This document shows positions 9,827-12,811 of a DNA stretch of 64,000 nucleotides, in pieces; position 1 is the first letter of the stretch; the number at the start of each line of letters is the position of its first letter. The notes beneath the pieces are model-generated. The model worked only from the letters and a program-made list of their open reading frames with translations, was not told the DNA's origin and made no database searches. The stretch is from Polyangiaceae bacterium. Its GTDB lineage: Bacteria; Myxococcota_A; Polyangia; Polyangiales; Polyangiaceae. The DNA lies in the NCBI GenBank assembly GCA_019637295.1, contig JAHBVX010000004.1, forward strand, positions 558,001 through 622,000. The letters are read 5' to 3'. The translations under genes were made by a program, and so were the position numbers.

Positions 9827-10260
9827 ATGAGGCAACCCATGCGCTCGCTCCACACTGTTGCGCTTCTGTCGTTCATCTCGCTGTCGGCGGGCTGCGCGAT
9901 CATCACTGACGTCGATCGGAGCAAGATCGACCCTGGGGATGCGTCCGCAGCCGGCGGGAGCGGAGCCACTGGCGGGTCCGGCGGGTCCGGCGGGAGCGGA
10001 GCCACTGGCGGGTCCGGCGGGTCCGGCGGCGGCGCGGGGTCGGCCGGCAGCGCGGGCTCGGGCGGCAGCGCGGGCTCGGGCGGCAGCGCGGGCTCGGGCG
10101 GCAGCGCGGGCCTGGGCGGCAGCGCGCGGCTCGGGCGGCAGCGGCGGCAGCGCGGGCTCGGGCAGGCGGCGGTAGCGCGGGCTCGGGTGGCAGCGCGGGC
10201 TCGGGTGGCTCGGCCGGCAGCGGCGGTAGCGCGGGCTCGGGCGGGACCGGCGGGACCTAG
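9827..10260 (+). pseudogene. Gly/Ser-repeat lipoprotein with two +1 frameshifts
   Basis: The ATG at 9827 opens a lipoprotein: a signal with lipobox LSAGC (Cys about residue 23), then a spacer with DVDRSKIDPGD, then tandem Gly/Ser/Ala repeats. From about 10125 the frame leaves Gly/Ser coding and becomes Arg/Ala-rich. Two single-base insertions explain this: an extra C at about 10128 (GCGCGGCTCGG where the repeat unit has GCGGGCTCGG) and an extra G at about 10164. Correcting both keeps Gly/Ser coding to the TAG at 10258-10260. Uncorrected, the frame runs antisense into the next gene to 10312. Either assembly error in low-complexity DNA or real slippage/inactivation is possible. Confidence 0.7.
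9950..10256 (+). repeat. Low-complexity Gly/Ser-coding tandem repeat
   Basis: Imperfect tandem units of the type GGCAGCGCGGGCTCGGGC (18 bases, coding GSAGSG) and GGCGGGTCCGGCGGGTCC fill about 300 bases. This is the region in which the lipoprotein frame shifts twice, so it is both a likely slippage site and a likely assembly-error site. Confidence 0.85.
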
Positions 10261-10748
10261 CGCGCCGCGCGGCGTCGGCGCCGCGCCATGGCCACGGCCA
10301 GCGCCAGGGTAGCCACGAACCACGCGGCGAAGTCGAAGCGCGCGCTCGGACAGACTCGCGCACCGCATCCGTACTGCGGCCCGCAGATCGGCGCCTGGCC
10401 GTCGGTGTTCGGATCCGTGCCGGCCTTCAATTCGGCGATGTCGCTGATGCCATCACCGTCCGTGTCCACCGCGTCCCGATCCAGACCGGCGAGCGCCGCG
10501 CGCAAAGAAGCTTCGTCATCACCCTCGAGCCCCTGATCAATCATCGACTCCGCCACAGGCTTGATGGCGGTGCCCTTGCCGCCGTTCTGGTCCTGGTGGC
10601 AAACGGCGCATGGTGGAGGGCAGGCCGTCTCGAGCTCACTCTCGACCACGCCGGGGTAGCTCGGCGAGGCCAGCGCCGGCAGCGGAACCAGCAGCAAAAT
10701 GAGCAGCGCTCCGCGCAACCCGGGTGTGCAGCGATCAGAGGTACGCAT
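10257..10748 (-). CDS. Exported single-CxxCH protein with TSP3-like repeat and MYXO-CTERM-like anchor
   Basis: 163 aa. A signal peptide (LLILLLVPLPALA) is followed by a haem-c type motif CAVCH (about residue 47), then a calcium-binding thrombospondin-3-like stretch (DTDGDGISDIAELKAGTDP). The C-terminus has three Cys (ICGPQYGC...VC), a hydrophobic helix and an Arg run (MARRRRRAAR). That end resembles the MYXO-CTERM sorting signal of myxobacteria, which suggests surface anchoring. The ATG at 10748 overlaps the end of the upstream gene (stop at 10735) by 14 bases, so the pair is coupled. It may act as an electron carrier for the haem-tagged barrel protein. Confidence 0.82.
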   Translation of the reverse strand: MRTSDRCTPGLRGALLILLLVPLPALASPSYPGVVESELETACPPPCAVCHQDQNGGKGTAIKPVAESMIDQGLEGDDEASLRAALAGLDRDAVDTDGDGISDIAELKAGTDPNTDGQAPICGPQYGCGARVCPSARFDFAAWFVATLALAVAMARRRRRAAR

Positions 10749-12225
10749 GGAGCTGTCCCATCACCGTGAACGGATCCTGCTGCCGGAAGATCGCGTCGAT
10801 GCGCATCTCCAAGCTGGGCAGGAAGAACCAGTCGACCGTCAACCAACCGCCGAAGCGAGGCTTCCCGAGCCCAGCGGCGCGCTCTAGATCGATCCCCGGG
10901 GTCGCGCTGGGCAACGCACGGTAGCCTCGGTCGAGCACCTCGCCGGTACCTCCGAAGTGCAGCCCCTGCACGGGTTCGTAGTCGAGCTGAAGGAACCCCA
11001 CATAGCCCAGCTCTCGGCGGGACTTGTGCAGCGCATCCGCCTCGAACATCAGAACCACGGGCTCCGAGACCTTGACGCGGAAGAAGACGCCGTGCGCGCC
11101 GCGCACGGTCTTCTGTTCCTCGAGCGTGATGTTGTCGGCCTCCGCCACCGTCATCAGGCTGCTCACGCCCGTCGCGAATGGCTCGGTGACCAGCGTCTCC
11201 ACGTACACGCCATAGCCGCGCTCGCGGTAGCGATCCGGGTTGATCTGGTAGTTGCCGGCTATGAGCATGGCCTCCCCGCGGAACAAGGAGCCGCTATATG
11301 CCAGGGCCGCGCCGTGCTGCTGATCGCTCTCCCGGTCGGTCTTGGTGGCTTCACGAACCCACATCACATGCTCGGAGAGGCGAACACCGAAGGGTACGTT
11401 GAGTCGTCCGGCCCGCAGCAACACCTCCGGGCCGAGATCGAACCCGACCCAGTGCGTGCGAGAGATCGCGTTGAGCTCCTCCCCCTGTCCGGTGGTGATC
11501 TGCGCGGCGCGAGCGTGGGGTGAGCCCACGGGGACCCGGGCCACGCCGATGCTACCCGCCAGACGTATGGCTCCGAACGCCATCTGTCCATACAGGTCCG
11601 CCTGCATCGGAAATGTCCGGAAGTCGGAGCCGCGGAGCATGTTGACGTAGCGAAAGCTGCCACCCAGCAAGAGCCAATCCGGCGTGTCGATCAGGCCCCA
11701 GAGAAAGCCCGACGCCGCGCCCGGCCCTTCGTCCTCCTGCGTTTCGTCTGCGCTCCGACCGCCGGCGCCCCCTGCGGCGGCGGACACGGACCCCGGCTCG
11801 TCGAGGTCTTCGACCTCCTGGCGCTTGCCATCGGCGCCCGCCCCACCGGCCTTGGCCTGCCTCACGTCGGCGTTGCCCGCCTCTTTGCCGCCGCCCGCGT
11901 CGTCGAAGTCGTCGAAGTCGTCGAACGAGCTGGACGTCCGCGTGCCGCGCTCGCTGCCGGATGCGGAGAGCTCCGTGTTGCCGTAGCGCATGCGCAGGAT
12001 GAGGTCTCCCTGCGCGCGCCCGTACTTGGTGAGCAACTCGCCTCCCGAGGGATCGGCGTGACACCCTGCGCAGCCCCCGTACCCATGACGAATCATCCAA
12101 GGATAGGCGGAGGCCACGGTCGTCCAGACCATGGACACCATGAACGCCACCAGACCGAACCCCCAACTCGAGTGTGCGAACTGTCGGCGGACGGCGGCCG
12201 ACCGGCTCCCTCGCGAGCGATGCAT
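10735..12225 (-). CDS. Predicted outer-membrane beta-barrel with N-terminal CxxCH haem motif
   Basis: 496 aa. The N-terminal signal/anchor (FGLVAFMVSMVWTTVASA) is followed at once by a single c-type haem motif in GYGGCAGCHADPSGG (about residue 53). A 100-residue acidic, low-complexity linker with FDDFDDFDD and Glu/Asp-rich stretches comes next. The remaining about 320 residues alternate amphipathic strands and turns (LLLGGSFRYVNML, LRAGRLNVPFGVRLSEH and others) and end in Leu after aromatic residues, as expected for an outer-membrane porin. This combination suggests a one-chain porin-cytochrome placing a haem at the periplasmic mouth of a pore. Function is inferred from architecture only. Confidence 0.75.
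   Translation of the reverse strand: MHRSRGSRSAAVRRQFAHSSWGFGLVAFMVSMVWTTVASAYPWMIRHGYGGCAGCHADPSGGELLTKYGRAQGDLILRMRYGNTELSASGSERGTRTSSSFDDFDDFDDAGGGKEAGNADVRQAKAGGAGADGKRQEVEDLDEPGSVSAAAGGAGGRSADETQEDEGPGAASGFLWGLIDTPDWLLLGGSFRYVNMLRGSDFRTFPMQADLYGQMAFGAIRLAGSIGVARVPVGSPHARAAQITTGQGEELNAISRTHWVGFDLGPEVLLRAGRLNVPFGVRLSEHVMWVREATKTDRESDQQHGAALAYSGSLFRGEAMLIAGNYQINPDRYRERGYGVYVETLVTEPFATGVSSLMTVAEADNITLEEQKTVRGAHGVFFRVKVSEPVVLMFEADALHKSRRELGYVGFLQLDYEPVQGLHFGGTGEVLDRGYRALPSATPGIDLERAAGLGKPRFGGWLTVDWFFLPSLEMRIDAIFRQQDPFTVMGQLHAYL
11905..11931 (+). repeat. Nine-base triplicated repeat coding Phe-Asp-Asp
   Basis: Three tandem copies of a GTCGTCGAA unit are seen on the + strand. On the coding (minus) strand they give the FDDFDDFDD stretch of the barrel-cytochrome linker. 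The unit length keeps the frame, so copy-number change would only alter linker length. Confidence 0.6.
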
Positions 12226-12265
12226 CCCGACGGTTATTTCATCCCATCGGCCGCGGCGTCAACGC

Positions 12266-12811
12266 TCACTTGTCGCGCAGCTTGAACTTCACCTTGAGCT
12301 TCACGTCGGGTTCGACGCAAACACGCAGCCAGCAGGGTTGTTCGATGTCGTGATCCCGAATGTCCACCGTGGCCAGCGCCTGCACGTGGTAGTCGCTGCC
12401 CGTCCGCTTGGCCTTGTAGGTGAACTTGAGGGGTTTGGTCACGCCGGCGATGGTGAACTGCCCGGTAGCCGACGAGCGCAGCTCCTTGCCGTCCGCGGGA
12501 AGCTTCAGCTTGGCGCGATCGATCTGCAGCGTCGCGTTCGGGTTCTTGTCGGTCTTCAGGTAGCCGCGCAGGTGCCGATCGCGCAGACCAATGCCGGTCT
12601 TGAGGTCGCCGACCGGGACGGTGATGCGTAGCACACCGTTGTGCTCGCGTGCGCTGAGCGACGACGCTTTGCCGTTGATCTTCATGCCCGCTGTACCCTC
12701 GGCGAGGAAGGTCACGTCCTCGTCTCCGGCGCTGACGAGCGCCGCGGACGCAATCGCGGAGACGGTCAGCGCGGCCGACAAGAGGGAGGCGATGAGTGCG
12801 CGTCGTTTCAT
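12266..12811 (-). CDS. YceI-family periplasmic protein
   Basis: 181 aa. A signal peptide (LIASLLSAALTVSAIASA) precedes a lipocalin-like YceI barrel. Typical elements are LRITVPVGDLKTGIGLRDRHL, the NATLQIDRAKL strand and GQFTIAGVTKPLKFTYKA. The family binds long isoprenoid lipids such as polyprenyl quinone-like molecules in the periplasm. It lies 40 bases upstream of the barrel-cytochrome gene on the same strand, so it is likely cotranscribed with it, compatible with a quinone/electron-transfer theme. A short Cys pair (CWLRVC) near residue 160 is unusual. Confidence 0.85.
   Translation of the reverse strand: MKRRALIASLLSAALTVSAIASAALVSAGDEDVTFLAEGTAGMKINGKASSLSAREHNGVLRITVPVGDLKTGIGLRDRHLRGYLKTDKNPNATLQIDRAKLKLPADGKELRSSATGQFTIAGVTKPLKFTYKAKRTGSDYHVQALATVDIRDHDIEQPCWLRVCVEPDVKLKVKFKLRDK

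Follow-up and report, generated by a model that had tools for sequence, protein, structure and literature searches.

In Cyc2, an iron oxidase of Acidithiobacillus and Mariprofundus, a cytochrome with one haem and a 16-strand porin, modelled on OprO and OprP, form a single chain; the haem has been shown, takes electrons from Fe2+ and has a reported potential of 208 mV (PMC8406198). Iron oxidation by microbes is traced with Cyc2 as a marker, and Cyc2 is recognised by one sequence motif, AXPXFAR[Q/K][T/Y] before the haem-binding CxxCH, which that source states to be unique to Cyc2, with a PXL four residues after CxxCH. The MtrCAB, MtoAB and PioAB systems likewise bring a barrel and c-type haem proteins together at the outer membrane, there as separate proteins with multihaem chains and a 26-strand barrel (PMC8406198). 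Here we describe a locus from a Polyangiaceae bacterium, contained in a 64,000-nucleotide stretch of DNA (the window; GenBank assembly GCA_019637295.1, contig JAHBVX010000004.1, positions 558,001 to 622,000), in which the sequence and its open reading frames (ORFs) bear out a trio of minus-strand genes: yceI, a gene for a 496-residue porin-like protein and a gene for a 163-residue partner. With 16 predicted strands, one chain and one haem motif, the porin contains no multihaem cytochrome running through a 26-strand barrel of the MtrAB type, and the locus is read, with a probability of roughly 55%, as a myxobacterial system built on a one-chain cytochrome-porin like Cyc2.

Relatives of the porin (E ≤ 1e-3) were found in 60 of the 377 genomes of a phylum sample, 11 of them weak (E above 1e-30), and in 58 of the 183 genomes of an order sample. 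The loci fetched around strong matches numbered 100 (L030 among them) and yielded 101 porin ORFs, because the gene at L147 is split in two; the synteny count omits the 11 weak phylum-sample genomes, three haem-only or short pieces (G413:C52, G425:C335, G428:C658) and secondary matches that were weak (G474:C60, for example). Exactly one CxxCH was present in 96 of the 101 ORFs, and the remaining five, which are contig-end, split or truncated, lack the N-terminus. With CxxCH in every porin ORF that has an intact N-terminus and in all 92 adjacent partners, chance is excluded. In the window porin the sole CxxCH, CAGCH, starts 12 residues past the apparent signal-cleavage site; an earlier interpretation of this DNA (the sequence-only reading) had placed it just after the signal peptide. 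A homologue search for fusions of CxxCH and barrel, one of the checks which that reading proposed, found the architecture conserved across the family, the two conserved blocks, haem module and barrel, being joined by a variable linker; an alignment of 54 homologues (A1) had a mean column identity of 37% and 39 invariant columns. The invariance of the Cys and His in A1 is partly by construction, because its rows were picked by a CxxCH-containing pattern. This pattern missed at least two intact homologues, L015 and L032, that deviate from it slightly in a residue or in spacing; L019 was excluded as nearly identical to L020. The less selected check is the wider homologue set with the 101-ORF count, the latter made with a profile built from A1, and there the Cys and His were kept in 96/96 ORFs with an N-terminus. 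DP[ST]G, which was not part of the selection pattern, follows CxxCH in 54/54 rows.

Two finer elements of this segment were considered and set aside. A Met upstream of CxxCH, invariant in A1, is not claimed as a haem ligand, because the pattern allowed only Met or Val and L032, dropped by the pattern, has Ser there. The acidic hinge of triplicated FDD that had been proposed between haem motif and barrel is present in the window protein, but no more than 2 of the 54 aligned homologues have FDDFDD. It is thus incidental, a local trait of a linker that is variable and disordered, and was rejected as a functional element. The window porin had no match in Pfam or NCBIfam; a scan of genome contigs with six peptide patterns returned three loci, all titled Myxococcales or Polyangiaceae, and tblastn of plasmids gave no match with the whole porin and a best E of 0.7 with the haem module of a homologue.

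An AlphaFold2 model built on A1 (mean predicted local distance difference test [pLDDT] 81.5, predicted template modelling score 0.78) has 16 strands, one extra four-residue stretch not being counted, with model residues 48–124 disordered (pLDDT below 50). Foldseek aligned it to 16-strand porins (E down to 1.8e-10; OprP at rank 9), and the nominal best structures by VIA-align were OprP (2o4v, Z 24.7, root-mean-square deviation 2.6, 286 residues aligned) and OprO (4rjw, Z 24.6), in a near tie with an OmpT deletion mutant (Z 23.8) and with other 16-strand porins within about 1–2 Z. The outer-membrane barrel that had been anticipated is therefore predicted. By sequence, Pfam Porin_O_P was touched weakly by 18 of the 54 members scanned singly (best E 1.6e-4), and a search of the PDB with the porin profile gave no useful match. 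When strand positions were assigned to a lumen or a lipid phase by hydrophobicity rather than from coordinates, conservation of 90% or more was reached at 27 of 91 lumen positions and 4 of 89 lipid positions, the former including seven Arg, four Glu, three Asp, two His and one Met. On this model, the conserved charged lumen looks like that of a channel with a specific interior and not of a general diffusion pore. The lumen, together with the OprP/OprO-like fold (the PDB title of OprP names an arginine ladder for phosphate transfer), would also suit a haem-bearing gated pore or sensor, in which the module plugs a substrate-specific channel and, depending on redox state or on a ligand such as nitric oxide or carbon monoxide, opens it or signals, with no net electron flow; since electron exchange more easily accounts for there being a second, dedicated haem protein whose module is related, such a pore is considered quite improbable.

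That second protein is encoded by the next gene, which shares exactly 14 bases with the porin gene (10735–10748), an overlap already given by the sequence-only reading. A partner hidden Markov model found a same-strand partner within 400 nucleotides downstream of 91 of the 98 porin ORFs with at least 700 nucleotides of downstream sequence, and overall 92 of the 100 loci have an adjacent partner; two of the eight without one (L134, L198) end at or near a contig end. Co-occurrence with the partner, another of the proposed checks, thus takes the form of a fixed pairing. In the order sample, three genomes (G414, G325, G395) have a partner-like match (E ≤ 1e-5) and no porin match, so that the link is strong and not absolute; in the window genome the partner query gives one match only. 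The additional CxxCH and the calcium-binding TSP3-like stretch ascribed to the partner were both recovered, the first as CAVCH and the second by Pfam. CxxCH is present in 92/92 adjacent partners and, by loose patterns, a TSP3-like run in 75 and a Cys / hydrophobic / Arg tail in 89. The only invariant columns in the 92 aligned partners are the two Cys and the His of CxxCH; the aligned rows were picked by this motif, though no adjacent partner was without it. At three loci (L112, L113, L143) no stop ends the partner frame, which continues into a segment containing two further CxxCH. Separately, an extra CxxCH-motif protein adjoins the trio at L112, L113 and L115. The NCBIfam model 'GEGP motif-containing diheme protein' was weakly touched by 60 of the 92 partners (A2; best E 3.5e-6; window partner 18.6 bits, cut-off 300), hinting at a possible wider family of such haem modules.

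The surface anchor of the partner, previously called MYXO-CTERM, was borne out in part. MYXO-CTERM tails lead proteins to the cell surface via lipidation, myxosortase and type II secretion, some of these steps being proposals (PMC11980579). The window partner has the tripartite layout of Cys, hydrophobic helix and Arg-rich end, but the curated model TIGR03901 (cut-off 20 bits) has no match in it, and among ten partners scanned gave one sub-threshold match (15.6 bits); 'MYXO-CTERM' is therefore used of the partner by layout and not by model. A further difference from the described pathway is that the word cytochrome is absent from the main text of PMC11980579.

The haem modules were compared using hhalign, with column shuffles that keep CxxCH as the control. 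The porin module against that of 18 Cyc2-motif proteins (six from plasmid records and 12 from Myxococcota) scored 36.38 (E 1.7e-7), a score reached by 0/200 (maximum 32.85) and 0/150 (maximum 36.3) shuffles, and the two align in register as A.P...R....CxxCH...LT.[FY]G. Porin against partner module scored 38.1 (E 2.8e-8; shuffle maximum 28.1 in 150), and partner against Cyc2 module 34.3 (shuffle maximum 28.4 in 150). By these profiles the porin and partner modules are related, and nothing about the locus is more distinctive than this matched pair, carried by a pore on the one side and by a protein with a surface-type tail on the other. It might be argued that the CxxCH motifs bind no haem and form a structural or metal site in an ordinary specific porin: haem binding is a sequence-based prediction, a classical cytochrome c fold would need a longer module, and no cytochrome in the PDB matches the partner model. 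However, the motif is kept in 96/96 intact porin ORFs and 92/92 partners, and the module is similar to that of Cyc2, where haem was shown (PMC8406198), which leaves this explanation highly unlikely.

The likeness to Cyc2 extends over the whole plan of the protein: one chain, a signal peptide, a single-CxxCH module related to that of Cyc2 and a 16-strand barrel with OprP/OprO as templates (PMC8406198). At 496 residues the porin exceeds the 365 residues set as the minimum for a Cyc2 with one N-terminal CxxCH and a barrel, and the resemblance to OprO and OprP reaches Z 24.6 and 24.7. A c-type cytochrome gene is often next door in both; in five of the six plasmid records one is annotated as the next gene after that of the Cyc2-motif protein. 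The differences lie in the motifs, with A[YF]..[MV]...CxxCH.DP[ST]G in place of AXPXFAR[QK][TY] and PXL (PMC8406198); in the barrel, conserved in the window family and variable in Cyc2; in the long disordered linker of the window family; and in its neighbours, YceI and the TSP3 haem partner. Partner and YceI profiles found nothing at E ≤ 1e-3 around the 18 Cyc2-motif genes (flanks of about 1.5–3 kb) or at a Cyc2-motif locus elsewhere in the window genome (L200).

Several observations weigh against an electron-transferring, Cyc2-like system. The motif AXPXFAR[Q/K][T/Y] occurs in 0/54 family members, compared to 11/18 Cyc2-motif proteins in its strict form, and PXL after CxxCH also in 0/54, which have DP[ST]GGxL. 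A profile of the 18 Cyc2-motif proteins, a stand-in for the FeGenie Cyc2 model, matches in the haem module only; the barrels alone have no detectable sequence similarity to Cyc2 barrels (E 0.19), and with barrels included the probability of the family-level match drops to 73%. For the partner, whose model is confident (pLDDT 90.9), a fold search against solved structures found no match (best E 8.6, best Z 2.1), which does not establish a new fold, and its putative surface placement rests on the tail layout and not on the curated model. No respiratory or metal-oxidation gene was recognisable near the window trio. The attachment of haem, the location of the proteins, their redox activity and the direction of transfer are predicted, and one haem is not enough by itself to cross the membrane.

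A Cyc2-like plan and a related module, with the motifs absent and the barrels dissimilar, place the window protein in a Cyc2-like sister family and not in Cyc2; by sequence comparison it is a family of its own, recurrent in myxobacteria. Membership in Cyc2 proper was rejected on the motif (0/54) and on the barrels, which lack sequence similarity. Of the sequence-only reading, the one-chain porin-cytochrome stands as an architecture, a haem module and a barrel in one conserved chain, while its contention that the arrangement is unlike the known conduits fails on comparison with Cyc2, which is published (PMC8406198) and has a related haem module. What is new here is the fixed pairing with a haem protein of related module, plus the strongly conserved charged lumen. 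No description of this porin family was met in the literature searched, which largely left subscription journals and preprints uncovered.

Cyc2-motif proteins themselves occur in the phylum. PMC12442345 includes Cyc2 sequences from Myxococcota, and 19 of 235 sampled Myxococcota genomes had matches at E ≤ 1e-3; the 12 that were fetched (L089–L100) all have the Cyc2-type haem segment. The window genome too, outside the window (contig C7, L200:3890–8832, plus strand), encodes a classical Cyc2-motif cytochrome-porin (AIPAFARQYGRDCQTCH...PKLTPFG), for which a sequence search of the PDB gave no useful match. Gene order at L200 is multicopper oxidase, an unknown gene, the Cyc2-motif porin and two Copper-bind (plastocyanin/azurin) proteins, possibly an iron- or manganese-oxidation cluster in a myxobacterium. 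As the L200 protein would be the better candidate for iron oxidation, the window system may have a different substrate.

Upstream of the porin, the YceI assignment proved sound (PF04264, E 2e-15, 57.9 bits compared to a gathering score of 23.7). YceI is the commonest upstream neighbour, frequent but not constant, being found within 600 nucleotides in 47 of the 91 porin ORFs with at least 1000 nucleotides upstream and at 956–1193 nucleotides in seven more. The sequence-only reading had included it in an electron-transfer cassette, but roughly one half of the porin ORFs have no adjacent YceI, among them L103 and L108, where nearly 6 kb lie upstream. Ubiquinone-8 has been co-purified with YceI proteins, which are linked to a cytochrome b561 that guards against the peroxidation of lipids; in this BcnA and LcoA system a YceI gene likewise stands beside a haem-protein gene, the haem protein there being a b561 and here a c-type porin fusion (PMC9113575). 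By analogy, the locus could serve antioxidant or quinone recycling, with YceI ferrying quinone between the membranes and the haem porin and partner exchanging electrons with it to quench surface oxidants. The frequency of YceI as a neighbour and the precedent of BcnA and LcoA favour this, but about half of the porin ORFs do without an adjacent YceI and these loci showed no recognisable cytochrome b561 gene, though no search aimed at one was made; it is considered unlikely.

For the Cyc2-like system, electron transfer across the outer membrane by the porin-partner pair is plausible by analogy. The exported 16-strand barrel, as modelled, would carry its short c-type haem module on a flexible linker. 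The protein of the next gene, likewise exported, would combine a related module for one haem with a TSP3 repeat and a MYXO-CTERM-like tail. By the usual porin topology the N-terminus of the barrel should face the periplasm, and the haem of the porin would therefore plug or hover at the inner mouth. A small substrate, reduced or oxidised, or the partner docked from outside, could meet that haem via the charged lumen; the partner would serve the outer mouth, the porin haem would accept or donate electrons at the inner mouth, and periplasmic carriers, perhaps quinone held by YceI or another cytochrome, would complete the circuit. The cytochrome c assembly family PF01578 was found at three places in the window genome. 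The likelier direction, by analogy, would be inward, with oxidation of an external soluble donor that is not necessarily iron. Outward transfer from the periplasm to external acceptors such as minerals or other cells, with the partner as terminal surface reductase, would agree with the fixed pairing and with a tail resembling a surface-sorting tag (PMC11980579), but known outward conduits use multihaem chains (PMC8406198), compared to one CxxCH per porin and one in the haem module of 92/92 partners (three of which read on to more), and this direction appears quite unlikely. It is tentatively proposed, as a possible though doubtful elaboration, that the two related modules form a minimal trans-outer-membrane relay, one at the inner mouth of the barrel and the other on a calcium-binding surface protein docking at the outer mouth.

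If there were such a relay, myxobacteria, which are known as heterotrophs and predators, would gain a route for exchanging electrons with other cells or with soluble substrates, distinct from the classical Cyc2-motif protein of the same genome. Myxococcota are not usually thought electroactive, and the family is present in a sizeable minority of the sampled myxobacterial genomes. The window family lacks the motif by which Cyc2 is recognised, and if it moves electrons, redox traffic at the outer membrane would be more widespread than motif-based searches show; if it moves none, it would be wrong to take fused haem-porins for iron oxidases. The features of the locus are given in Table 1.

Table 1. 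Features of the cytochrome-porin locus, in positions of the window.
Feature	Positions	Strand	Basis
YceI-like periplasmic lipocalin-type protein, 181 amino acids	12266..12811	-	Pfam PF04264
Fused monohaem cytochrome-porin, 496 amino acids, predicted Cyc2-like sister family	10735..12225	-	CxxCH and predicted 16-strand barrel
Porin signal peptide, residues 1-40	12106..12225	-	Sequence; cleavage site judged by eye
Porin haem module (predicted), residues 39-83, AYPWMIRHGYGGCAGCHADPSGGELLTKYGR	11977..12111	-	Related to Cyc2-motif and partner modules
Porin CxxCH haem-binding motif, CAGCH, residues 52-56	12058..12072	-	Sequence
FDDFDDFDD in disordered linker, residues 101-109, not conserved	11899..11925	-	Sequence
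Predicted 16-strand outer-membrane barrel, residues 172-496	10738..11712	-	AlphaFold2 model; OprP/OprO fold match
Partner: exported one-CxxCH TSP3 protein with Cys / hydrophobic / Arg tail, 163 amino acids	10257..10748	-	PF18884
Partner CxxCH, CAVCH, residues 47-51	10596..10610	-	Sequence
TSP3 calcium-binding-type repeat, residues 95-114	10407..10466	-	Pfam PF18884, E 1.4e-7
C-terminal Cys / hydrophobic / Arg-rich sorting-tail-like segment	10260..10370	-	Sequence layout

Beyond the trio, a Gly/Ser/Ala-rich lipoprotein-like ORF on the plus strand (9830–10261) is convergent with the partner gene, and its reading frame seems to shift around 10128–10170. At three homologous loci (L105, L106, L107), short genes of a family designated F11 lie on the opposite strand just past the porin or the partner.

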